DNA of 22,729 nt. It comes from a virus. Below the pieces are notes generated by a model. It ran no database searches, was not told the origin of the DNA, and worked only from the letters and a program-made list of their open reading frames with translations. The translations under genes and the position numbers were made by a program. The stretch is from positions 1 to 22,729 of IMG/VR virus record IMGVR_UViG_3300009496_000089; one strand, given 5' to 3'. Numbering within the stretch: the first letter of the stretch is position 1; every line of letters starts with the position of its first letter. Positions 6,691 to 22,729 of the stretch are shown here, one piece after another.

Positions 6691-6740
6691 CAGTTAATTT
6701 CGCTTTTTGCAAAAATAGTTTTGTTGAGAATCAATCACTT
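6685..6740 (-). repeat. 56-bp promoter-upstream module, copy 1
   Basis: The 56 bases match 14205-14260 at 49 positions without gaps, running from TGTACA to AAGTGATTGAT (minus strand), including an A/T-rich core with TTTTTGCAAAAA. Both copies end exactly at the stop codon of the upstream gene. Confidence 0.9.
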
Positions 6741-7353
6741 ATAAAATAGTTAAATTTAATTTTTCTAATTCTTTTTCAAGTTTCGGATTTTCTGGTATTG
6801 CTTTATGGAATTTATGGTTATTATTACCTGTATAAGAAGATATGTATTTTATAGCTTCATTAAATTCGACAACGTCATATTCTTGATTTGTGTTATCAAG
6901 CCACTCTTTTATATGGAAATAATGTTTTTGTATTTCCTTTTCTAGTGTAACCCAATCTCTATCTTTATGCTCATCCCACTTTGCATCATTTATAATAAAT
7001 CTATCTTGAGCATGCCAAGCACCTGTAGCTAAAGCAAGCAATGTAGATTTATATCTGGCAACTGCATCTTCTCGATATAAAATTATATGATGGTAATCCT
7101 GCTGCTGACTCAAATGTTGTATAGCTTTTTCTATTGATGAGCCAATATGATCATATCCTGATAAATGATAACAAAAAGAGTAGTTGTTATCAAAAAGATA
7201 TGTTAGCTCGCTATCATCCTTTTCAAGAGGTAGATGCCCCTTAGTCTCGTGCCCGACCTGATTATTCTTGACTTTATAATCATAATATAAACCGAGACTT
7301 GCTGTTCTAGCTGATGCCCATATTATAAATGGCTTGCCTTTATTTCTCAGCAT
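6739..7353 (-). CDS. Sulfotransferase-like protein, 204 aa
   Basis: The N-terminus KPFIIWASARTASLGLYYDY has the position and pattern of the 5'-phosphosulfate-binding loop of PAPS sulfotransferases (beta strand, then R-T/S-rich turn, then helix). The later IILYREDAVARYKSTLLA resembles the 3'-phosphate-binding strand-helix (R...S). The C-terminal part carries helices (WVTLEKEIQKHYFHIKEWLD). ATG 7353 is chosen because it overlaps the upstream stop by 14 nt and starts just before the loop; ATG 7392, preceded by GGGAAAG, would add 13 residues and is possible. It is the last gene of the SGNH, radical SAM, SPASM-like, sulfotransferase cassette. The likely role is transfer of sulfate to a glycan or other surface acceptor; the substrate is unknown. 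Confidence 0.72.
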   Translation of the reverse strand: MLRNKGKPFIIWASARTASLGLYYDYKVKNNQVGHETKGHLPLEKDDSELTYLFDNNYSFCYHLSGYDHIGSSIEKAIQHLSQQQDYHHIILYREDAVARYKSTLLALATGAWHAQDRFIINDAKWDEHKDRDWVTLEKEIQKHYFHIKEWLDNTNQEYDVVEFNEAIKYISSYTGNNNHKFHKAIPENPKLEKELEKLNLTIL

Positions 7354-7672
7354 TATTGCACCACTGTAAACATGGTCCAGGAGTTGTATCATAACTTTCC
7401 CATGATTCAGGCAAAGTTTCGTTAAACCATTCGGATTCTAAAATGTCATCTATATTATTAGTATTAATATTAAACTTTTCTCTTTGAGCATGATATTTCG
7501 CTAATACTTCATACTTAGAGAAAGTTAGTCCACTCTTATGATTAGTAGCAAGTGCCGTGTAATGTATATTTCCTAAGTAGCAGCATGGATATACTTGACC
7601 GTCAGGATTAATTAATATAGTGTTATCCTTTTGCCACATGCATTCGATACACGGCTTATCTGATGTAGGCAT
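7340..7672 (-). CDS. SPASM/twitch-like Fe-S domain protein, separate ORF (110 aa)
   Basis: The ORF shows CIEC (C8, C11), then NPDGQVYPCCYLGN (C30, C31) and PGPCLQWC (C101, C105). This is the auxiliary [4Fe-4S] cluster domain that normally forms the C-terminus of radical SAM/SPASM enzymes. It starts (ATG 7672) inside the end of the radical SAM gene, in the +1 frame, with no clear Shine-Dalgarno sequence. The natural fusion point would be the shared stretch around 7660, where one frame reads NAYIR-stop and the other runs on into SDKPCIEC. It is therefore either a true split enzyme made by coupled translation, a frameshift product, or a sequencing error. It overlaps the sulfotransferase gene by 14 nt. 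Confidence 0.75.
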   Translation of the reverse strand: MPTSDKPCIECMWQKDNTILINPDGQVYPCCYLGNIHYTALATNHKSGLTFSKYEVLAKYHAQREKFNINTNNIDDILESEWFNETLPESWESYDTTPGPCLQWCNNAEK

Positions 7673-8441
7673 TATCTAAGTCTTTCATTTGATTTTTATC
7701 TTTAGTCTGTCTGGACTGAACAAATTCTTCTGCTCGGTCAACCCACTCACTATTCATAATATGTCTTGATAAATCTTTTCTAGTCATTTCTTCTAAAAAC
7801 TCTTCTTCTCCATCTTCATTTACAAATCTAAATTTATTGTTAACTAAAAATCTGTCTGATTTAATTACATAACATTCATTAGCGCCATACATTTTAGCTA
7901 GATTCATCATGTCGTAGGTGTAATTTTCGTTGTGCTTAAACAAAATAATAAAAGCTTTTACATTGGCTGGAGTATTAGAAATCGCTTCCATGTTTTCCAA
8001 TACTTTGTCTAGTTCAACGCCTCGACGATATTTGGCATGCATTTCATTATTAATGCCATCAATATCAAAATAGATTAGTAATCTATCACCGCAATAACTA
8101 CCTAGTTTTTCCCACCAGCTTGGAGATCTTAATCCGCCATTAGTGTTAATATGAATTGTTGCATTAGAGTGATCTATAATATGTTTACACATTTCTAGTA
8201 GATCTTTACTCATAAGCGGATCACCCCACGTTCCGCATAGCCAAAATTTGCCAATTCTATCCATTGAACCAGCAGGAAATGCATTTACAAATTCTTCGAG
8301 ATCCCACTTCTTTAGTGGTAACCAATCCATTTTATCTAATCCGTTTGGATCGGTCCTGTGACATTGAGGACACGCCGCGTTACAGAATGTAGAAATATCT
8401 AACCATACCGTAATACCTTTAAGGTCAGAGAATAGTCCCAT
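7656..8441 (-). CDS. Radical SAM enzyme core, 261 aa
   Basis: C20, C24 and C27 form the CxxxCxxC cluster motif (CNAACPQC) after an initial beta strand (VWLDISTF). Further radical SAM features are FWLCGTWGDPLMSKDL (GGE-like SAM contact replaced by GTWGDPL), IHINTNGGL, LIYFDIDGINNEMHAKYRRG and VKAFIILFKHNENY. Such enzymes reductively cleave S-adenosylmethionine to modify peptides, sugars or cofactors. The usual C-terminal SPASM domain is absent and lies in the next, overlapping ORF. ATG 8441 follows GAGG at 7 nt. The gene follows the SGNH hydrolase across a 90-nt AT-rich gap with a weak late-type box. The substrate is unknown; an auxiliary-cluster partner and neighbouring sulfotransferase suggest modification of a surface polymer or peptide. 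Confidence 0.88.
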   Translation of the reverse strand: MGLFSDLKGITVWLDISTFCNAACPQCHRTDPNGLDKMDWLPLKKWDLEEFVNAFPAGSMDRIGKFWLCGTWGDPLMSKDLLEMCKHIIDHSNATIHINTNGGLRSPSWWEKLGSYCGDRLLIYFDIDGINNEMHAKYRRGVELDKVLENMEAISNTPANVKAFIILFKHNENYTYDMMNLAKMYGANECYVIKSDRFLVNNKFRFVNEDGEEEFLEEMTRKDLSRHIMNSEWVDRAEEFVQSRQTKDKNQMKDLDNAYIR

Positions 8442-8469
8442 TAATCATCCTCTTCGTAAATATAAAGAC

Positions 8470-8477
8470 GATTTATA
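8470..8477 (-). promoter_or_regulatory. Weak late promoter candidate (TATAAATC)
   Basis: TATAAATC on the minus strand differs from TATAAATA at the last base and lies 29 nt before the radical SAM start. A second variant, TATAAATT, is at 8496-8503. The whole 8442-8531 gap is AT-rich and holds no gene that I can see. Confidence 0.3.
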
Positions 8478-8531
8478 TGAGGTTTCTTTTTACTAAATTT
8501 ATATTTTATTTTATAATATAATCTAATAAAT

Positions 8532-9443
8532 TTACTCTGTATTTTTCCAAGCATTATAAAATTCTTTCGCTATAAGTTCGTGTCCAAGTTGGTTTGGATG
8601 ACCATCGTTTGGAGCAATACAATATTTTTCATTTTGATAATTGATAGAGGCCTCGTAATTATATCCACCTAAAACTTTAACAAAAGGAAATCCTATTATA
8701 GATTCTTCTTTTTTTAAAACATCATACAAAAAGACTTCATGCATATGATCGATTAGCCATGCATCCATACTTTGCTTAAGCGGGTTTTCAAGACCAAATC
8801 TTTCTAAATAATGTTCGTGTGGAGGGAGCGGATATAAAAGTTGATAAATTAAAACTTTATATCCAAGAGCTTTTGCCATAGTTATAACATTATATATCTG
8901 TTGAAACGCATAATGAATTCTTCTTTTTCTATACTCGCCCCAAACATAATAATTCGGTAACCAGTCACGCGCAAAATTTTCTATACCCATTCGTTCACAG
9001 TCTCGCAATGCGCGCTCTTGGTCTTCAGGATTATTTGATATATGGCGAGGAAGCGAAACTAAGGGATGTTCTCCCTTTTCTATACTGTCTTTTAGTTGGT
9101 ACATATAATATACAGCAGGGTTAAAATTAATTTCAGTGTATGTAGAGTATTCTCGCCACCAATCTGTCAATCCTAGTACTATTAAATTTTCTGGATGTGG
9201 CTTTATATTACGCTCTTCTGAAAATACAGCTCTTTGTATTCGGTCAATTGATTTACTTAAACTAGCTCCGCCGCGGCCAGTATTAATTACTTTATAATCT
9301 ATTCCGTGCTTATCTTTAATAATATCAGCTAAAACTTGTGGCCAAGCCTTGATTTCATTAACTCCATGGCTTTTTGAAAAATATTGCCAGTTATTTGGAT
9401 CAGTAAACGAGCATCCTCCGGCTACTAGTACAGGTTTTTGCAT
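8532..9443 (-). CDS. SGNH/GDSL-type hydrolase, 303 aa
   Basis: Block I is GGCSFTD with Ser12 in the nucleophile position; INTGRGGAS (53-61) fits block II; LIVLGLTDWW (87-96) occupies the block III place; NDGHPNQLGHELIA (279-292) has the catalytic His region of block V. The family includes esterases, acetylesterases and acyltransferases acting on carbohydrates or lipids. There is no signal peptide, so it probably acts in the cytoplasm or on the virion. ATG 9443 follows GAGGAG at 7 nt. It is the first gene after the minus-strand half of the palindromic late promoter at 9469-9480, so late expression is likely. The following genes (radical SAM, SPASM-like, sulfotransferase) suggest a shared job in modifying a glycan. 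The Ser-His assignment is from motif position only. Confidence 0.8.
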   Translation of the reverse strand: MQKPVLVAGGCSFTDPNNWQYFSKSHGVNEIKAWPQVLADIIKDKHGIDYKVINTGRGGASLSKSIDRIQRAVFSEERNIKPHPENLIVLGLTDWWREYSTYTEINFNPAVYYMYQLKDSIEKGEHPLVSLPRHISNNPEDQERALRDCERMGIENFARDWLPNYYVWGEYRKRRIHYAFQQIYNVITMAKALGYKVLIYQLLYPLPPHEHYLERFGLENPLKQSMDAWLIDHMHEVFLYDVLKKEESIIGFPFVKVLGGYNYEASINYQNEKYCIAPNDGHPNQLGHELIAKEFYNAWKNTE

Positions 9444-9992: not shown

Positions 9993-10165
9993 AGTTTATA
10001 TTAGTAGCCGTGACGTATACGCATTTTTGGATTAACGGCGCAAACACGTTTGTGCAAGTATGTACATATAGAGAGAATGTAACTAAACCCAATCGATACT
10101 ATGATAAAAAGTTTTGGTACTACCCAGATTCAAAATGTCCACAAAAGAAAAATTTAAAGAGGTAA
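9983..10165 (+). CDS. Small exported Cys-pair protein, 60 aa
   Basis: ATG 9983 overlaps the stop of the upstream gene by 10 nt (ATGGTGGTAG), with AAAGG immediately upstream. Residues 1-20 are hydrophobic (MVVEFILVAVTYTHFW), followed by a polar, Tyr/Lys-rich domain with two cysteines, C27 and C52. The layout (signal or anchor, Cys, about 25 residues, Cys) matches the ORFs at 11386, 11566 and 12709. It is probably periplasmic with one disulfide. The function is unknown. Confidence 0.6.
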   Translation: MVVEFILVAVTYTHFWINGANTFVQVCTYRENVTKPNRYYDKKFWYYPDSKCPQKKNLKR

Positions 10166-10167
10166 AA

Positions 10168-10563
10168 ATGGCCGGTAAACAACTAGATACTGATTCCCAA
10201 TGGAATCATTTGGATCGTGATGGTGATGGCGTTATAACTGATGAAGAGATTGCAATGGAACAGAGAATGATTGAGCTTCAGGACATGCGTTCTGATATGG
10301 AAAATGAAGACAAGAAACAAGACGCACAGAGAAACATGGCATGGTTTGCATTATTTGGAATGCTGCTATATCCTTTCTCTGTAGTACTTGCAATATGGTT
10401 AGGACTAGTACAAGCTGGTGAAATCCTTGGCGATATGGCAGCGGTTTACTTTGTATCAGTCGCAGCGATTGTTGCAGCCTTCTATGGCAAGGAAGCTATA
10501 GCTGCATCTAAAAAGAATAGTGTAACAGCTACGCAAAAGAAAACGGTAGTAGATAATAGGTGA
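10168..10563 (+). CDS. EF-hand membrane protein, 131 aa
   Basis: ATG 10168 follows AGAGG at 5 nt. Residues 16-27 (DRDGDGVITDEE) form a complete EF-hand calcium loop with ligand positions D16, D18, D20, V22 main chain, T24 and E27. A charged helix follows (residues 28-55), then two transmembrane segments (WFALFGMLLYPFSVVLAIWL and MAAVYFVSVAAIVAAFYG). This EF-hand-plus-two-helices protein is a conserved type I recall from marine T4-like phages. Calcium-dependent behaviour at the inner membrane, perhaps in lysis control, is inference. Its stop overlaps the next gene's GTG start (GTGA). Confidence 0.85.
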   Translation: MAGKQLDTDSQWNHLDRDGDGVITDEEIAMEQRMIELQDMRSDMENEDKKQDAQRNMAWFALFGMLLYPFSVVLAIWLGLVQAGEILGDMAAVYFVSVAAIVAAFYGKEAIAASKKNSVTATQKKTVVDNR

Positions 10564-14899: not shown

Positions 14900-14928
14900 A
14901 CTCTAACATAAAACAAATCAAATGTACA
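14900..14928 (-). promoter_or_regulatory. Early-type promoter (TGTACA-17-TAGAGT)
   Basis: TGTACA at 14928-14923, 17 bp, TAGAGT at 14905-14900, with TTTAACTG upstream. The expected start site is within a few bases of the SprT-like ATG at 14893. Confidence 0.75.
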
Positions 14929-14937
14929 CAGTTAAAT

Positions 14938-15549
14938 TCATTTTTTATTAATAGCACCAGTACGAACTTCAACATTTTTTGGAAGATTTACTTTAGCAGC
15001 GCCGTGCTTATGATAGACAACAAACTGAGTATTAGGAAATTGTCTAAACAAACCTTCCCAAATAGGCCTCCAGTTTTGAGCTAATCTATGCGTATTAAAT
15101 GCATCACGATTTGAATTAAGCACAAAGTCTGTAGTACTAATAAGATTGAAGTCAAAGATAGAATCGAAGCCGTACATATGGACTTCATCACAGTTTAGTT
15201 TGTTAGAAACGTAGTGCGTACACATGTGACCACAATTAAAATCTGTATAGTTAGCAACATATGGTGGTAGCTCTGTATAAAACTCTTTAATATGTCGAGC
15301 AAACCTCATATAAAAGTTTGGTTTCATTTCCATATATTTTTTAGGACGTGCACCCATAACCCAATCATATGCACGCAAGTCTACACTACCTTCATCCATA
15401 GCTCGACACATTTTAAAATCAACGATAGCTGTAGCATATACGTTGCTAACTTCCATAGGTGGAAGATTACACGTCATAATGATACCTTTAGCCGGCTTAT
15501 AAAACCGAAAGCTATCTCCATTTCCAATAATATGTGCTACTTTAGACAT
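14938..15549 (-). CDS. DUF115/sialyltransferase-fold-like protein, 203 aa
   Basis: The N-terminus VAHIIGNGDSFRFYKP is a nucleotide-binding-like strand-GNG-turn, followed by MTCNLPP, AIVDFKMCRAM, a central NCGHMCTHYVSNKL and VHMYGFDSIFDF, and a C-terminal FVVYHKHG. The order (GNG..S, N, D, SGH-like helix, YGFD) is that of the DUF115/GT42-like fold, which includes flagellin glycosyl transfer accessory proteins and sialyltransferases. The assignment is by pattern only. It is the last gene of the glycan operon and overlaps the upstream glycosyltransferase by 8 nt. It probably transfers or assembles a surface sugar. Confidence 0.6.
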   Translation of the reverse strand: MSKVAHIIGNGDSFRFYKPAKGIIMTCNLPPMEVSNVYATAIVDFKMCRAMDEGSVDLRAYDWVMGARPKKYMEMKPNFYMRFARHIKEFYTELPPYVANYTDFNCGHMCTHYVSNKLNCDEVHMYGFDSIFDFNLISTTDFVLNSNRDAFNTHRLAQNWRPIWEGLFRQFPNTQFVVYHKHGAAKVNLPKNVEVRTGAINKK

Positions 15550-16198
15550 TATTCATCATACTCCGAATTTTTTCTTTGCCTTTATTGCCAGTCCAATGAT
15601 TAATTAAAATTTTCTTTGGAGCGGTTTTGTCAATATGATCAAGACGTAAAACATTATATGAATGCGATAGATCTACAATATTAACAGCCTTTTGCAAAGG
15701 ATCTAACATTTCATGTAGCGTTTCTTGATCGCCGCGGCTAGGTCTGTCATAACATTGTTGAGCCCAAGCTTTTAGAATCTGTGGTTTACCTTTAAACGCT
15801 ACTACACCTGAATTATACATTTCAGAATTACCACGCTTTGTCCAAGGCTTGTCTACAACCATATGTAATTTTTCAGGTAATAGATTATCAAATATTCCTG
15901 AAATATCTCCTAGCACTTCGCAATCAGTATCTAGCCAGCACGTCTCTCTATACGGAGAGTTAAGCATTGCTCCTGGTTTATAAAGCCATGTCGGTACATT
16001 GCGTGGTGTTTCAAGTCTTCCAATTGAATGCACTCTAGTCTCAAGATGGTTTAGCATCTTGTCTGACATACCAAAATCTACTACCGTAATAGGAATAGTA
16101 TTATGTTTTTGATAGTTATCAAGCATCCATGGCAGCATCCATTCAGTGTTGGTATCACTACCTGTCATGAAGGCTCGTGTAAGATCCGTATTAAACAT
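15542..16198 (-). CDS. GT8-like glycosyltransferase, 218 aa
   Basis: CWLDTDCEVLGDIS holds the DxD metal and sugar-nucleotide site (D90, D92). MYNSGVVAFKG and GDQETLHEML follow in the usual GT8/GT-A order, and HWTGNKGKEKI near the end gives the C-terminal His-containing metal site. ATG 16198 overlaps the upstream gene by 8 nt. It probably adds a hexose from a UDP- or other NDP-sugar in the cytoplasm. The acceptor is unknown. Confidence 0.82.
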   Translation of the reverse strand: MFNTDLTRAFMTGSDTNTEWMLPWMLDNYQKHNTIPITVVDFGMSDKMLNHLETRVHSIGRLETPRNVPTWLYKPGAMLNSPYRETCWLDTDCEVLGDISGIFDNLLPEKLHMVVDKPWTKRGNSEMYNSGVVAFKGKPQILKAWAQQCYDRPSRGDQETLHEMLDPLQKAVNIVDLSHSYNVLRLDHIDKTAPKKILINHWTGNKGKEKIRSMMNNV

Positions 16199-16835
16199 CT
16201 ATAATTTCTACCTTATTATGTTTTGCTGTACATCCGCGTTCACTTTGAATAGTAGTAAAACTGTCTTTAGCTTCAACTGGCCATGGGAAATATTCTTCTA
16301 AGAATGGAAAGGTATTTCTATTCAAGAACACATCAGTAGGTCTAGCTTCCATACGAGCCTGATCAATAAACAATTGTGCTGCTGCTGGCTTTACCCGATA
16401 CGCGTGAGCGCCAGGAAAATAAGGCTTAGAAGTAAGACTATTAACACCCAAGCTATTTGGCGTATGGTACTTTCCGTATGAAGGCATTCCTAAAGATACG
16501 GCACCTTTATAATTAATTAAAGTAGGAATAGTATTGACACATACCGCATCATGTTCAAAGATTGTGATTTCCTGATTAGTTTCTACCGAATGTTTCCATA
16601 GTCTGTAATGAGAAATAAACGCAGCAATGCAATTTGAAGTTCTAGAATAAACCTCATTCATTTCGACTATATTAATCTTTTCAGATTTAATAATTTTATA
16701 GAGGTCGTCGTTTGGAGTAGTAGCTTTAAACTTTTCGATCTCAAGCTTGCCAATTGATCGTCCAGATTTAATGCATCGTTCAGCCACAGACTGAGACTTT
16801 TCATTATCAAATATGGTAATCACATAGTGTTTCAT
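16191..16835 (-). CDS. GT25-like glycosyltransferase, 214 aa
   Basis: AFISHYRLWKHSVETNQEIT and IFEHDAVCVNTIP match the GT25 (LPS/LOS beta-galactosyltransferase-like) core, where the E-x-D motif (EHD here) is the metal site. AHAYRVKPAAAQLFIDQAR and PTDVFLN follow as in the family. It is a paralogue of the preceding gene (16832-17533), sharing the SHYxLWxxxV and EHDAV segments. ATG 16835 overlaps the upstream stop (ATGA). Confidence 0.82.
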   Translation of the reverse strand: MKHYVITIFDNEKSQSVAERCIKSGRSIGKLEIEKFKATTPNDDLYKIIKSEKINIVEMNEVYSRTSNCIAAFISHYRLWKHSVETNQEITIFEHDAVCVNTIPTLINYKGAVSLGMPSYGKYHTPNSLGVNSLTSKPYFPGAHAYRVKPAAAQLFIDQARMEARPTDVFLNRNTFPFLEEYFPWPVEAKDSFTTIQSERGCTAKHNKVEIIDV

Positions 16836-17533
16836 AAAGTAGTTGTCGAGGGAGTACCCTGCACCTTTGTATAATATTTCTTAGTGACACCTAGAAAGTT
16901 CATTTTAAAGTTTTGATAACAAAGCAAGGCATCGTTAGGCCATGCTCCGATTCTCTTTACAGTCTCAATAACTTCTTTTGCTGCCCATGGTTTAATTATA
17001 TATGCAGAGTTTCCGGCCAAACCTTGAGGGATTAAAGCCGTATCAATTCGAGGAACTGGCTGAATATGATATTTGCTTTCTTGTATCATGTTATGATATA
17101 TAATAGACTTTCTTGTTGCACCACGTGGATCATTAATACCGATTACGCCATAGTTATTGTTGTCCATTATATCATAGTCTAACTTACTTGTAAACACTGC
17201 ATCGTGTTCTAAAACTAAAATATTTTCTTGCAGTTTTACACACTCTTCCCATAGTTTGTAATGACTTAAAAAACAAGCTATACGCTTTCTAGGATCAGCT
17301 GTGCGATACGGAGATAAAGTGCATCCAGAAACCATATCAATTTTAGGCTGATGCCATGGATATGACCATTTAAGATTTGCTTCGCTAAAGCAAGTATCAG
17401 CATTTTCTGCTCTTACCGCTTTAAACGGTACAATTACAAAATCGTTTCCGACGAGGTGCGACGAGCGAATCAACTCAGCGGTCGCAGCTTCAGACACGGT
17501 GTGTCCTCCTAATGTAATTGCATATGCTTTCAT
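16832..17533 (-). CDS. GT25-like glycosyltransferase, 233 aa
   Basis: CFLSHYKLWEECVKLQENIL and VLEHDAVFTSKLD carry the GT25 core; GNSAYIIKPWAAKEVIETV and WPNDALLCYQNF correspond to the C-terminal part. The tandem pair with the next gene suggests duplication and divergence, giving two linkages. ATG 17533 overlaps the methyltransferase stop (ATGA), and the stop overlaps the next start in the same way. Confidence 0.82.
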   Translation of the reverse strand: MKAYAITLGGHTVSEAATAELIRSSHLVGNDFVIVPFKAVRAENADTCFSEANLKWSYPWHQPKIDMVSGCTLSPYRTADPRKRIACFLSHYKLWEECVKLQENILVLEHDAVFTSKLDYDIMDNNNYGVIGINDPRGATRKSIIYHNMIQESKYHIQPVPRIDTALIPQGLAGNSAYIIKPWAAKEVIETVKRIGAWPNDALLCYQNFKMNFLGVTKKYYTKVQGTPSTTTL

Positions 17534-18150
17534 TTTACTAACTCGATAATATAGCTATCAGGTTGACCGGTTAACTTACGGTTATCGTGTCTAGTAATAG
17601 TCATGCCAGACTCTTCTATTTCTTTTAGAAACATATTATTATCTAAAGCGTTATAGCGATCAGGATGACGACGTAACCATGGATGCTCTAATTCTTTCAT
17701 AGTCATAGACTCAAGTGGAAATACATCTTCGATAAAGAAATGACCATCTTCTTTTAGAAACTTAGAAAGATAACGGAACGTCAACATATTAGCTTTAGGC
17801 GTATGCAAACCATCATCGATAATTACATCAAACTTAATATTGCCAAACTTTTCGATAAGCTGTCGACTTACTGATGGCTCAATGCTGCTGGCTTTAAGAT
17901 AATCAGTACGATCTTTTTGATAGCAAGGTAGATCTTCAGCCCGAGTACGTACGAAGATATCAATTCCATACAAGTTTGCTTTTGGCAAAAACTCATGAAA
18001 TGCTTCAGTGCTATGTCCGTTAAATACTCCTATTTCTAAAATGTTAATTTCTTCATCTTTATATTTTTCTAAGACAGGTTCGTAAACTCTGTCATACTTG
18101 TGTTTTCTAGTTTTGTCACATCCATAAGCGTCAAATAATTTACCTAGCAT
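17530..18150 (-). CDS. SAM-dependent methyltransferase, 206 aa
   Basis: ATG 18150 is preferred (AAAGGA 6 nt upstream) over TTG 18156. LFDAYGCDKTRKHKYDRVYE is followed by the class I SAM-binding motif INILEIGVFNGHSTEAF, then LYGIDIFV (acidic residue for the ribose), FDVIIDDGLHT (motif IV) and HFFIEDVFPLES. It resembles sugar O-methyltransferases of the MycE/TylF or Methyltransf_24 type, where DDGxH helps bind metal. Within a glycosyltransferase operon a sugar methyl-capping role is the best inference. Confidence 0.82.
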   Translation of the reverse strand: MLGKLFDAYGCDKTRKHKYDRVYEPVLEKYKDEEINILEIGVFNGHSTEAFHEFLPKANLYGIDIFVRTRAEDLPCYQKDRTDYLKASSIEPSVSRQLIEKFGNIKFDVIIDDGLHTPKANMLTFRYLSKFLKEDGHFFIEDVFPLESMTMKELEHPWLRRHPDRYNALDNNMFLKEIEESGMTITRHDNRKLTGQPDSYIIELVK

Positions 18151-18709
18151 TGCCAATCCTTTTAATTAATGTATATCCAACATTTTCCTGATAATATTCT
18201 ACTAATGCCCAATCAGTATAATTTTTTTTCACAAACTCATCTATAACATCTTGTAATTTTTTGACAGCAAATGTGTCGTGAAATAATATATATTTGTTTA
18301 CTTTTTGGGGATGTATTTCTAATTCTTTACGCAAATGAGCTGGCTTGTGATTTGAATCTATTAAAAGAAAATCAACAAACGGCCTGTCTTCGATAATCAA
18401 ATTTGTTGAACTGTCTACAATTAACTTATAATTGTATTTTTTAAATAAAGATTCATATTCCATAAATGGTTTAGGATGCGTATCGATAAGTTCTAAATAT
18501 TCATAACCGGCTAAGGCTGCCGCTGCAGCCGTCGCTCCTTGCATAACACCTAACTCACGATACGACTTACAGTCTTTTGCTTTGTCTCTAATTATATTAT
18601 GATGAGCAACGTACTCATCGCCATGAGCCTCTGTTTGACGTTCTACAAGTGCATTGTAAAAATGTTCTAGGTCGGTAAACGTTTTAACTGGGGCTTCTAG
18701 ACGAATCAT
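18140..18709 (-). CDS. Methyltransferase-fold protein, 189 aa
   Basis: ATG 18709 overlaps the sulfotransferase stop (ATGA). SYRELGVMQGATAAAAALAG holds the SAM-binding strand-loop-helix, ELIDTHPK follows, DFLLIDSNHKPAHLRKELE has the acidic/His motif, and KYILFHDTFA completes the fold. It is a second, divergent relative of the downstream methyltransferase. The glycine-rich loop is ELGVMQGAT, a little unusual but compatible with activity. It overlaps the next gene by 11 nt. Confidence 0.7.
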   Translation of the reverse strand: MIRLEAPVKTFTDLEHFYNALVERQTEAHGDEYVAHHNIIRDKAKDCKSYRELGVMQGATAAAAALAGYEYLELIDTHPKPFMEYESLFKKYNYKLIVDSSTNLIIEDRPFVDFLLIDSNHKPAHLRKELEIHPQKVNKYILFHDTFAVKKLQDVIDEFVKKNYTDWALVEYYQENVGYTLIKRIGNAR

Positions 18710-19395
18710 CTTAGCGCCCAAACATTTTTTGTTGCTCCTGTATCAAAGTCGAATCCCCACATATCGATATCTTTTGCATACCAGTCAGCAATGATTTGTT
18801 TAGTCTTATCAGTGTACATATCCATGTACGTACCTTTATTTAAGGCTGTAACATTTCTTGCGCGCGACATTGTAGGAATATTGAAGTATGATATAAGATC
18901 TTCATTTAAATTTTCAAAGCGGATCATATCGCATTTAAGATTACCTTGTTCATCTGTTACATGATCTACTGCAGGATACCATCCACGCACGGCGCGATGC
19001 CACATAAACGGATGGTTACCCCAATTGTGACGTTCCTCTAAAAAGGCATCAAAGCTAGAAACGTCTGCATATGATGCTGGACTTTTCTTTTCAACTTCGA
19101 TAACTTTTTTCGCGAAAAAGTAACGACTAACGACACGATCCCAAGGGTTCCTAACAACAGCAAAAGCACCAAATCTGCTTGTGTATGTTGGATTAAGGTC
19201 TCGCCAGCGTGCATGCTCAATTCCATGATGATCTCCTGTCATGGCCATAGTGTCTAAAAGCTCTTGAGTATATTCTCGGCTTTTGTGTGTTTGTGCTCCA
19301 TTAACCATAATCTTATCTTTTAAGAATGGACTATGGCGAATTGTCATTCCAGCATTTTTTGGAATGTGCACAAAAATCTTTTTATCAATCAACAT
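18706..19395 (-). CDS. Sulfotransferase (Sulfotransfer_2-like), 229 aa
   Basis: KIFVHIPKNAGMTIRHSPFL is the 5'-phosphosulfate loop of carbohydrate sulfotransferases (IPKNAG, S/T), and FAVVRNPWDRVVSRYFFAK is the 3'-phosphate site (RNPxxRxxSxY). The C-terminal DKTKQIIADWYAKDIDMWGF is typical of the family. It would transfer sulfate from PAPS to a sugar hydroxyl. No PAPS synthesis genes are in the window, so donor supply from the host is assumed. It overlaps the upstream glycosyltransferase by 11 nt and the downstream gene by 4 nt. Confidence 0.92.
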   Translation of the reverse strand: MLIDKKIFVHIPKNAGMTIRHSPFLKDKIMVNGAQTHKSREYTQELLDTMAMTGDHHGIEHARWRDLNPTYTSRFGAFAVVRNPWDRVVSRYFFAKKVIEVEKKSPASYADVSSFDAFLEERHNWGNHPFMWHRAVRGWYPAVDHVTDEQGNLKCDMIRFENLNEDLISYFNIPTMSRARNVTALNKGTYMDMYTDKTKQIIADWYAKDIDMWGFDFDTGATKNVWALR

Positions 19396-20182
19396 ATGTC
19401 ATAAGCTCCTCTACGTTTTCGCCACGATTAGGAAGCTTATCTTTTAGAAAGAAGTGTACGAAATTACATTCTTTAACACGGCCTGCATCAATTCCAGTAA
19501 ATAAACCATTCCAATGGAATGTCAGGTTCTTTACGTTCATCCCGCTTTCTTTTACAAAGACATTGAGAAGGGTTTGATCGGTCGACCATTTCCAATTACC
19601 CATTCCATCGATAAAGGCTTTGAACTCAGGGCGCATTAAAAACTGTTGAGGTGTTTGGCCTTTAAGGTATTTTTGAAAACCTTTATTTAGAACCATCATG
19701 CCCATATTATAAAAGTCTGCTCCAGCTCCGCTAGGATGTTTCCAATCAAATAGTTGATTAATTGGCGTCATACCATATTGCATACGAGAGTAGTTAGCAA
19801 TCTTACGTAAATACTGCGAGGTGACTGGCATGTCACGTTCTAGTACTCCACCAAAATCATACTCTTCTGGTACCTTATCAAAAATATTAGGAGCTCCTGG
19901 ACGAATCCAAATATCAGCATCGATAATAGCAACTTGATCATTGGTCTTCAAATACGTAAAGGCGTTTTCCTTCTCAAATATTGGAAGGAAACCACCATGT
20001 TTTTCATACGACTCTTTACTACGATTAGTAGCAAATACGTCCGGCTTAATTCGAAGGATAGGTTGTTTCTGAACCACGTGTTCAATATTGTGTTCCTTAC
20101 AATATTGTTTTACAGATTCAATACAGTGATCATAAAGCCTAGAGCGTTTTCCTACATAGACTTGATAGATTACTCTTTTCAT
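19385..20182 (-). CDS. GT8-like glycosyltransferase, 265 aa
   Basis: VAIIDADIWIRPGAP holds the DxD site (D88, D90); ADFYNMGMMVLNKG, STDQTLLNVFV and LTFHWNGLF are in GT8 order. ATG 20182 lies inside the end of the upstream 82-aa ORF (44-nt overlap), with AAAGAG upstream. It probably acts early in building the glycan that the following genes sulfate and methylate. Confidence 0.82.
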   Translation of the reverse strand: MKRVIYQVYVGKRSRLYDHCIESVKQYCKEHNIEHVVQKQPILRIKPDVFATNRSKESYEKHGGFLPIFEKENAFTYLKTNDQVAIIDADIWIRPGAPNIFDKVPEEYDFGGVLERDMPVTSQYLRKIANYSRMQYGMTPINQLFDWKHPSGAGADFYNMGMMVLNKGFQKYLKGQTPQQFLMRPEFKAFIDGMGNWKWSTDQTLLNVFVKESGMNVKNLTFHWNGLFTGIDAGRVKECNFVHFFLKDKLPNRGENVEELMTYVD

Positions 20183-20387
20183 AACTAGACTCTTTCAAAA
20201 TAATATTTACAATTTCATTTGCACGTTCATATTTAGTTCGCAGACGATTAGATCCTTTACCGTTCTCTTTGAACCATACTAGACTATCTATACTACTATT
20301 CTTATACTCATCTGGAATCCTATATCGGCGGATAATTTCTTCATATTCTGTACGCAAGTTAAGCAGACTCGCCAGTGATATATTCAT
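20139..20387 (-). CDS. Conserved-looking small protein, 82 aa
   Basis: ATG 20387 is chosen (GGAAAG upstream); the longer frame to 20531 lies inside the HAD gene. The protein is helical and charged: MNISLASLLNLRTEYEEIIR, DSLVWFKENGKGSNRLRTKY and ANEIVNIILKESSYEKSN. It overlaps the HAD gene by 29 nt and the glycosyltransferase by 44 nt. I have a weak sense of having seen LNLRTEYE/WFKENGKG in marine phages. The function is unknown. Confidence 0.65.
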   Translation of the reverse strand: MNISLASLLNLRTEYEEIIRRYRIPDEYKNSSIDSLVWFKENGKGSNRLRTKYERANEIVNIILKESSYEKSNLSSLCRKTL

Positions 20388-20961
20388 AAATATCTTTCCA
20401 TTTTGCAAACGTTGGGTATGTAGTATTATGCATATTGTGTGCATGTTCAACAATAATAGACTCAAGACCAAGATCGTTACCGAGCTCAGCATTTTCAAGT
20501 TTATCTTCAATCCACATAAGTCCAGTATCACGATATGGTTCTAACACATCGTCTTTATCAGCACCGGTGTCTTCAAAGATAAATTTAGTAAAGGCAGTAT
20601 CGCCAAAAAGCTTTTTAGTATTTTGAATACGAAGCTTTTGAGCATGCTCGTCTTTTGAGAGAGATGTAATCATATGAAAAGTATAACCATGTTTACGGTG
20701 TAGAAGATCTACATAATACATAGCATCACGAAGAGGTGGTAAGAAACCCATAGCAGCGGATTCGTTGAATTGTCGAACTAACCGACTTTTAAGTTCTGGA
20801 TCGAGATTATATCGATCTCCCATATCATAATGTTCTTGACCATCTTCAACGATTTTATATCCTTGAGATTGCATCCACACATTCATGGCATATTCCCAAT
20901 TCATGAGAACACCATCGCAGTCAGTTAAGATTACTTTATTTAGATTATTTAGATTATTCAT
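20359..20961 (-). CDS. HAD-superfamily phosphatase/nucleotidase-like, 200 aa
   Basis: ILTDCDGVLMNWEYAM has the DxD nucleophile motif (D14, D16); HMITSLSKDEHAQ gives the Ser/Thr motif II and MWIEDKLENAELG the acidic motif IV. The cap region between is helical. The layout resembles 5'(3')-deoxyribonucleotidase-like HADs found in phages, so a nucleotide or sugar phosphate is the likely substrate. It is the first gene after the 21003-21031 promoter and heads the glycan operon, which could favour a sugar phosphate. Confidence 0.82.
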   Translation of the reverse strand: MNNLNNLNKVILTDCDGVLMNWEYAMNVWMQSQGYKIVEDGQEHYDMGDRYNLDPELKSRLVRQFNESAAMGFLPPLRDAMYYVDLLHRKHGYTFHMITSLSKDEHAQKLRIQNTKKLFGDTAFTKFIFEDTGADKDDVLEPYRDTGLMWIEDKLENAELGNDLGLESIIVEHAHNMHNTTYPTFAKWKDIYEYITGESA

Positions 20962-21002: not shown

Positions 21003-21031
21003 GTTATACCATACTTTTAAGGAGATGTACA
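21003..21031 (-). promoter_or_regulatory. Early-type promoter (TGTACA-17-TATAAC)
   Basis: TGTACA at 21031-21026, 17 bp, TATAAC at 21008-21003, with AATTAACTG upstream and an A/T-rich stretch (TTTTTTCCAAAAACCGC, minus strand) like the two 56-bp modules. It drives the HAD gene and the whole glycan operon. Confidence 0.8.
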
Positions 21032-21061
21032 CAGTTAATTGCGGTTTTTGGAAAAAATAAT

Positions 21062-22262: not shown

Positions 22263-22729
22263 CTATAGGTTGAGCATTTCTTTTGTCATAATATAGTCTC
22301 TTACAAAATCAGATCGCACAATATCCTGCCATCCAAAATTAATTATATCAAAGTTTTTTAGTTGTTCTACGATTGTTAGAAATTTATATATTCCTGTTTT
22401 ATCATCTTCATATTTAAAATCAGTTTGTAGATGATCACCACTAAATATAATACGCGAATCTCTACCGACACGTGTTATAACAGAGTCTAGCTCATGGAAG
22501 TTTAGATTCTGCATCTCGTCTACTAATATCACAGCATTATCTACAGTTACACCTCTGATAAAGGAAGTAGATTCAAATTGAATTTTACCTGAAGATATCG
22601 CTTTACTCCAAGATCCCTTATCACCAAATAAATCGCAGGCAATAGCTTTATATGGAGCAATGTATGCTTCTTCTTTTTCTGCCTTAGTGCCAGGCAAGTA
22701 TCCCATATCTCTCGTTGGAACCATAGATC
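22263..22729 (-). CDS. phoH: PhoH-like ATPase, C-terminal part (partial)
   Basis: The frame runs off the window end, so the N-terminal Walker A part is missing. Visible are VPTRDMGYLPGTKAEKEEAY, then FIRGVTVDNAVILVDEMQNL (Walker B VDE) and RIIFSGDHLQTDF, the hallmarks of the phosphate-starvation-inducible PhoH ATPase/helicase-like domain. phoH is common in marine phages; its function in infection is not settled. The stop is 9 nt before the endolysin start. Confidence 0.92.
   Translation of the reverse strand, partial: SMVPTRDMGYLPGTKAEKEEAYIAPYKAIACDLFGDKGSWSKAISSGKIQFESTSFIRGVTVDNAVILVDEMQNLNFHELDSVITRVGRDSRIIFSGDHLQTDFKYEDDKTGIYKFLTIVEQLKNFDIINFGWQDIVRSDFVRDYIMTKEMLNL

Follow-up and report, generated by a model that had tools for sequence, protein, structure and literature searches.

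A compact gene cassette with constant ends and a swapped middle in marine T4-like phages, predicted to make a sulfated, methylated glycan

Clusters of genes for surface sugars are already known in phages, where they are usually regarded as patchy extras or even as filler DNA; the possibility that they are 'stuffer DNA' was raised in PMC3037559. The closest described examples are the lipopolysaccharide (LPS) clusters of the cyanomyoviruses P-SSM2, S-SSM7 and S-SM2. These clusters are large, above all those of the 232-kb and 252-kb genomes, and seven LPS genes are common to the three phages. One P-SSM2 LPS cluster adjoins phoH (PMC3037559), and superinfection exclusion or an altered surface of the infected cell has been proposed for cyanophage LPS clusters (PMC2984593). 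In this study we analysed a 22.7-kb piece of the virus record IMGVR_UViG_3300009496_000089 (22,729 nucleotides, hereafter the window), which carries a ten-gene cassette in the order HAD, p82, GT8a, ST, MT1, MT2, GT25a, GT25b, GT8b and MptE/DUF115-like (GT, glycosyltransferase; ST, sulfotransferase; MT, methyltransferase; Table 1). Eight of these genes, from GT8a to the MptE/DUF115-like gene, are predicted to form a coherent glycan pathway, and the cassette is completed by two co-transcribed genes, HAD and p82.

The cassette is like the cyanophage LPS clusters in belonging to a T4-like marine phage and, as in P-SSM2, in placing sugar genes near phoH: it adjoins the phoH gene of the window (22263-22724), and PhoH is encoded upstream of the cassette in most relatives. 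It differs from them in being compact and overlapping, with constant ends and a swapped middle. In 50,697 phage records, a collection that may omit records very close to the window, GT8a had no relative and GT25a had only matches of 24-27%, to three Synechococcus phages and in at least two cases to 2OG-Fe(II) oxygenase proteins, so that homology to the cyanophage clusters was found for neither gene. ST and the MptE/DUF115-like protein also had only distant or isolated relatives in these records, a nucleotide search of them with the operon gave no match, and the cassette was present in no cultured phage searched.

Bacterial O-antigen and LPS outer-core loci resemble the cassette in their constant flanks, exchanged interior, nucleoside-diphosphate-sugar enzymes, glycosyltransferases, and methyl and sulfate caps. 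The cassette differs from these loci in lacking a flippase, a polymerase, an initiating transferase and a ligase. The glycogenes of chloroviruses (PBCV-1 A064R and A111/114R) and Megavirinae are similar in that glycosyltransferases and methyltransferase are encoded by the virus and a conserved core carries variable decoration, and the Megavirinae clusters occupy a fixed genomic site in several clades. Unlike the cassette, they belong to eukaryotic viruses and the mimivirus glycogenes are late; homology to the cassette was compared by the GT8a fold match alone. Phage C48C1 (Kyanoviridae) is the closest annotated relative of the window by gp32 (57.6%). In this phage (L015:7319-15648), relatives of HAD and of the MptE/DUF115-like gene bracket sugar-type genes upstream of gp32. 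The interior is unrelated and contains genes for a NodU-type carbamoyltransferase, a radical SAM/SPASM protein, an annotated glycosyltransferase, a holin-like protein and a nuclease. The HAD-to-DUF115 region may be a site at which sugar genes of various kinds are accommodated.

Operon structure and promoter class

The source virus is judged to be a T4-like myovirus, because the window encodes a T4-type gp32, a relative of the C48C1 protein annotated as late-promoter regulator, and PhoH. An initial annotation of the window had described ten overlapping genes from 20961 to 14938 as one operon under an early-type promoter; the overlapping genes were confirmed, and the promoter type is supported. 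All ten open reading frames (ORFs) are present and intact on the minus strand. They overlap at 9/9 junctions, by 29, 44, 11, 4, 11, 4, 4, 8 and 8 nt when the best-supported starts, all ATG, are used. The start of MT1 is most likely ATG 18709, which matches the start in its relatives, and that of MT2 was taken as ATG 18150 in preference to upstream TTG codons. The ratio of nonsynonymous to synonymous substitution rates (dN/dS) was ~0.04-0.29 for nine genes compared with close relatives at 70-99% identity; MT1, which has no relatives in that range, was left out of the set. The nine compared genes are under purifying selection.

The operon promoter belongs to a family composed of TAACTGTGTACA, a 17-nt spacer and a TATAAT-like box, often with TG just before the box. 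The strict pattern has 5 matches in the window, as against 0.28 expected. Copies precede the HAD, SprT-like, gp32 and exonuclease genes, among others, and lie on the minus strand at 3-6 kb, 14 kb and 21-22 kb. Since the second copy starts the next gene, which encodes the SprT-like protein, the boundaries of the operon fit the coordinates proposed for it. A position weight matrix (PWM) was built from eight sites in the window and applied to G003, a 135-kb relative, where it gave 29 hits, compared with 1-2 in shuffled sequences. The hits are densest from 34 to 115 kb, HAD and SprT are each preceded by a copy, and the operon promoter is found in the same place, at 95296. There was no hit from gp32 to the end of the G003 record, a region that includes the genes for baseplate hub, tail tube, DNA end protector and head closure, and the first 31 kb contained only three, all on the strand opposite gp23. 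The T4 late-promoter consensus TATAAATA occurred in the window at chance level only. Because the motif also precedes the gp32 and exonuclease genes and is all but missing from the structural module of G003, these data support an early or middle class for the operon promoter, and the operon would presumably be expressed at that time. A promoter-like TTTACA-17-TATAAT site, weaker than the family, was also seen within the coding sequence of GT25a (17194-17166). It recurs in G003 at 98825 and may be a coding constraint.

Table 1. Genes and promoters of the cassette, with coordinates in the window
Feature	Coordinates	Strand	Basis or remark
Operon promoter	21003..21037	-	TAACTGTGTACA, 17 nt with TG before -10, TATAAC; motif 21031-21003; PWM 37.2
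HAD-family phosphatase, co-transcribed	20359..20961	-	phrog_420; NT5C-like below cut-off
p82, 82-aa protein	20139..20387	-	Directly upstream of GT8a in about half of loci
GT8a, predicted GT-A-fold glycosyltransferase, constant 5' member	19385..20182	-	DxD; PF01501 in relatives; fold
ST, predicted carbohydrate sulfotransferase of the 3'-phosphoadenosine-5'-phosphosulfate (PAPS) type	18706..19395	-	PF03567; phrog_3347; motifs
MT1, putative S-adenosylmethionine (SAM) methyltransferase-fold protein, variable middle	18140..18709	-	PF13578 below cut-off
MT2, predicted metal-dependent sugar O-methyltransferase, MycE/macrocin type	17530..18150	-	Profile match; motifs
GT25a, predicted glycosyltransferase, constant 3' block	16832..17533	-	PF01755
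GT25b, predicted glycosyltransferase, constant 3' block	16191..16835	-	PF01755
GT8b, predicted glycosyltransferase, constant 3' block	15542..16198	-	DxD; glycogenin match
MptE/DUF115-like, last gene of constant 3' block	14938..15549	-	Weak PF01973; model
Next promoter, same family, starts SprT-like gene (3' boundary of unit)	14900..14934	-	Motif at 14928; PWM 33.6

Predicted enzymes of the pathway

When protein families, motifs and neighbours are taken together, it is highly probable that the eight genes encode a glycan-assembly pathway. The assignments to enzyme families were upheld, and the genes swapped in among relatives are sugar-nucleotide enzymes, glycosyltransferases, methyltransferases and sulfotransferases, in agreement with the proposal that the operon serves a sulfated, methylated glycan. 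GT8a keeps an invariant DxD motif (D88, D90). Its GT8 family (PF01501) was matched in 20/47 relatives (best 6e-7), the GT8a of the window itself giving no match. The AlphaFold model (pLDDT confidence 93.4) has a GT-A fold, and the best solved Foldseek matches were UGGT (1.4e-9), xyloside xylosyltransferase and the PBCV-1 capsid glycosyltransferase (2p6w; E 2.4e-8, TM-score 0.56/0.70), with many other GT-A enzymes also matching. By the PF01501 matches of its relatives and by the fold of its model, GT8a is assigned as a GT8/GT-A enzyme.

In the 3' block, the PF01755 scores were 55.7 bits for GT25a and 39.3 bits for GT25b, against a Pfam cut-off of 24. The EHDA motif of GT25a is invariant apart from one V, and the GT25 profile matched 8xc8 at 2e-8 (GT25b). 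GT8b has invariant DxD (D90, D92) and H.TG..G motifs and resembles glycogenin, a GT8 enzyme (E 0.003); it is placed in GT8 by the glycogenin match and DxD only. The last protein is a probable transferase. Weak matches to PF01973 (MptE/DUF115) were found in 14/44 of its relatives (best E 0.011), and its model (pLDDT 93.6) had no significant match and no solved counterpart when compared with the PDB by Foldseek; the matches obtained were uncharacterised viral proteins, and some further hits were labelled MptE-like. Sequence searches of the PDB with the DUF115 and GT8a profiles gave nothing convincing.

Among the middle genes, ST matched Sulfotransfer_2 (PF03567) with 28.6 bits, above the cut-off of 22. 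Its HIPKNAGMT and RNPWDRVVSRY segments are nearly or fully invariant, and both PAPS-binding motifs (5'-PSB and 3'-PB) are kept. MT2 is above the cut-off for Methyltransf_24, and its profile matched 3ssm (E 6e-22) and 8ia9 (E 1e-20), that is, MycE and demethylmacrocin O-methyltransferase. The DDG.H and ED motifs of MT2 are invariant and align with those of MycE/macrocin-type enzymes; in 3ssm, which we take to be MycE, they presumably hold the metal ligands and the catalytic base. MT2 is thus a predicted MycE-type sugar O-methyltransferase, and it differs from those enzymes in consisting of the catalytic domain alone. For MT1 the methyltransferase fold is a weaker assignment: Methyltransf_24 (PF13578) was below the cut-off, and the IDS.H and HDT motifs are invariant. 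A search with MT1 found only a near-identical contig, and tblastn on the fetched loci gave 15 distant carriers.

The initial annotation had suggested that all ten genes could serve one glycan pathway. This view is supported for the eight genes above and was not sustained for the first two. HAD was not accepted as a pathway member, because its family is widespread in phages that have no cassette: its relatives occur in 697 phage records, with or without the cassette, the same records in which GT8a has none. Family searches with p82 gave no match. Away from the cassette, the plus strand of the window encodes an EF-hand-like protein, membrane-spanning by sequence (10114-10563); in many other loci, relatives of this protein are encoded between p82 and GT8a.

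Constant ends and exchanged middle

The loci analysed came from scans of IMG/VR and numbered 182, with L015 of phage C48C1 counted among them; merging of duplicates left 102 distinct loci, of which nearly all are marine viral contigs. They were chosen for at least one cassette gene, and the following counts are conditional on that choice. The order GT25a-GT25b-GT8b-DUF115 was exact in 57/60 loci with DUF115 and enough upstream sequence, and all four 3' genes were present in 38 of the 42 loci in which GT8a is followed by sufficient sequence. Independent scattering of the genes among relatives, which would have spoken against a common pathway, was therefore not seen. The content between GT8a and GT25a varies from locus to locus, so that the ends are constant and the interior is exchanged. 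In a core-gene tree of 57 taxa, ST was present in 45, MT2 in 32 and MT1 in 9, and the numbers of changes on the tree were 8 for ST, 13 for MT2 and 7 for MT1 with its 9 carriers. Other middle genes encode further methyltransferases, a second sulfotransferase type, GT8a-like transferases (by profile comparison), a GalE-like epimerase, a HAD-nucleotidyltransferase fusion and a mannose-phosphate isomerase/HldE-like fusion.

Two further types of middle gene were observed. A UDP-sulfoquinovose synthase is encoded in the phage cassettes of four loci (L034:5665-6810, also L036, L128 and L169), with an NF041015 score of 357.6 bits, below the cut-off of 575. A RuBisCO-like protein lies in the variable middle of three (L088:7491-8549, also L089 and L152), beside a MobA/IspD-like nucleotidyltransferase. 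The IIKPK and DFIKEDE stretches are retained, as is a histidine matching RuBisCO H327; as we read the alignment, the lysine of loop 6 and one histidine of the active site are missing, which is also the case in form IV proteins. A literature search found no obvious report of a RuBisCO-like protein in phages.

GT8a relatives on contigs of bacterial genomes were considered as signs of a bacterial donor or host. This was rejected, because they are mostly phage contigs binned with metagenome-assembled genomes (MAGs); those long enough carry the cassette, sometimes with PhoH. Cassette contigs L200, L202 and L204-L206 were binned into MAGs of Rhodobacteraceae, Flavobacteriaceae, Opitutia, Bacteroidetes and Sphingobacteriales. 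Such bins give weak, conflicting hints about the host, together with a warning of contamination.

Candidate acceptors and biological meaning

No credible transmembrane segment was found, either among the proteins of the cassette or among 428 ORFs taken from the GT8a-GT25b interval of relatives. Only three of these ORFs scored as high as the threshold, and a misplaced start, a disrupted reading frame or a barrel strand buried in the fold can account for each. Since the membrane components of an O-antigen pathway, flippase, polymerase and ligase, are absent from the cassette, the acceptor would be reached from the cytoplasm. The product is most likely a short, sulfated, O-methylated oligosaccharide made early in infection. 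The constant ends and swapped middle suggest that GT8a, GT25a, GT25b, GT8b and the MptE/DUF115-like protein would make or extend a shared core, and that the exchangeable middle genes (here ST, MT1 and MT2) would cap or decorate it. Related phages would then display different glycotypes through exchange of the middle genes.

As the place of this oligosaccharide we tentatively prefer the host envelope, with somewhat less than even confidence. The acceptor would be host LPS or lipooligosaccharide on the cytoplasmic face of the inner membrane, and the altered surface of the infected cell would exclude rival phages. This is favoured because of the early-type promoter, the phoH neighbourhood, the superinfection exclusion proposed for cyanophages, and the kdsA and HldE-like genes of G003, which is near-complete. 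The kdsA gene, for KDO-8-phosphate synthase, lies at L187:10276-11058 (G003 50276-51058; 328.8 bits, over the cut-off of 242), and the HldE-like nucleotidyltransferase is encoded at L187:11978-12400. G001, which together with G003 is among the closest long relatives, also carries kdsA. Several points weigh against an envelope acceptor: kdsA is separated from the cassette by ~45 kb and was detected in no relative other than G001 and G003, the cassette has no lipid A- or core-specific enzyme, and the MAG bins with such contigs span Bacteroidota, Rhodobacteraceae and Opitutia. Moreover, chlorovirus capsid glycans share the pattern of soluble viral glycosyltransferases, a common core and variable decoration (PMC7826918).

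It is possible, with a lower probability than for the envelope, that the pathway decorates the virion. The glycan, with its common core and exchangeable caps, would be added to a capsid, fibre or baseplate protein while this is still in the cytoplasm and unassembled. The wholly soluble pathway is consistent with this, as is the constant core with exchanged caps, which recalls chloroviruses and Megavirinae. In chloroviruses there is a precedent for glycosyltransferases combined with methyltransferase capping (PMC7826918), and in giant viruses the glycogenes are grouped in clusters of 6-33, several of which occupy a fixed position flanked by conserved genes (PMC10117803). The GT8a structure is similar to that of the PBCV-1 capsid glycosyltransferase, a similarity that extends to many other GT-A enzymes. 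However, the promoter class and position of the cassette differ from those of the structural module, the mimivirus glycogenes are all expressed late (PMC10117803), and nothing was found that ties the cassette to a particular virion protein. The initial annotation had reasoned from the early promoter that the target is not the virion only. The promoter class was upheld and the argument built on it is weak, because a virion protein may be synthesised later than the enzymes that modify it; since the early promoter does not settle the acceptor, that interpretation is partly supported. A related proposal, which we regard as rather unlikely, is a phage 'serotype locus', whose constant flanks and exchanged interior would provide every phage with a sulfated, methylated glycotype of its own, carried on the virion itself. 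If this is true, it would be the bacteriophage counterpart of the capsid or fibril glycans of chloroviruses and mimivirus, and the glycan type would change by cassette exchange among co-infecting phages.

Modification of a soluble or secreted glycoconjugate, or of another host molecule such as a glycolipid, an exopolysaccharide or a host protein, is improbable. In its favour, the UDP-sulfoquinovose synthase of some relatives is a glycolipid-type donor enzyme; against it, the cassette has neither an exporter nor a lipid-specific enzyme. T4 glucosylates hydroxymethylcytosine, and decoration of phage DNA, in which the glycosyltransferases and caps would build sugars on modified bases, had also been suggested; in spite of the early-type promoter, the T4-like genome and a Thymidylat_synt-family gene in relatives, it is very improbable, since that family occurs in only 4/15 records (many of them fragments), the only such gene found in G003, the closest complete relative, is placed by its PHROG with the thymidylate synthases, a dedicated hydroxymethylase was not identified, and the sulfotransferases, UDP-sulfoquinovose synthase and serotype-like swapping better fit a displayed glycan.

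Elsewhere in the window, 6739-9443 may be a second modification module. Its first part (6739-7392) has sulfotransferase-like motifs by eye and no Pfam hit. A SPASM domain (7340-7672) and a radical SAM domain (7656-8441) follow in separate overlapping frames, and then an SGNH-hydrolase-like protein (8532-9443).

In conclusion, what is new, for the collections and papers examined, is the organisation with constant ends and a swapped middle and its breadth in uncultured marine T4-like phages, together with a GT8a that has no match in the phage records. The cassette resembles the loci by which bacteria vary their surface sugars, and the swapped genes bring chemistry unexpected in phages, such as a UDP-sulfoquinovose synthase and a RuBisCO-like protein. 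The same ends and order over about a hundred marine viral loci, with the middle turning over, are the expected trace of selection for glycan variety. Whether phages alter the surface of the host or decorate their own virions is now a directly testable question, for which the genes are named.

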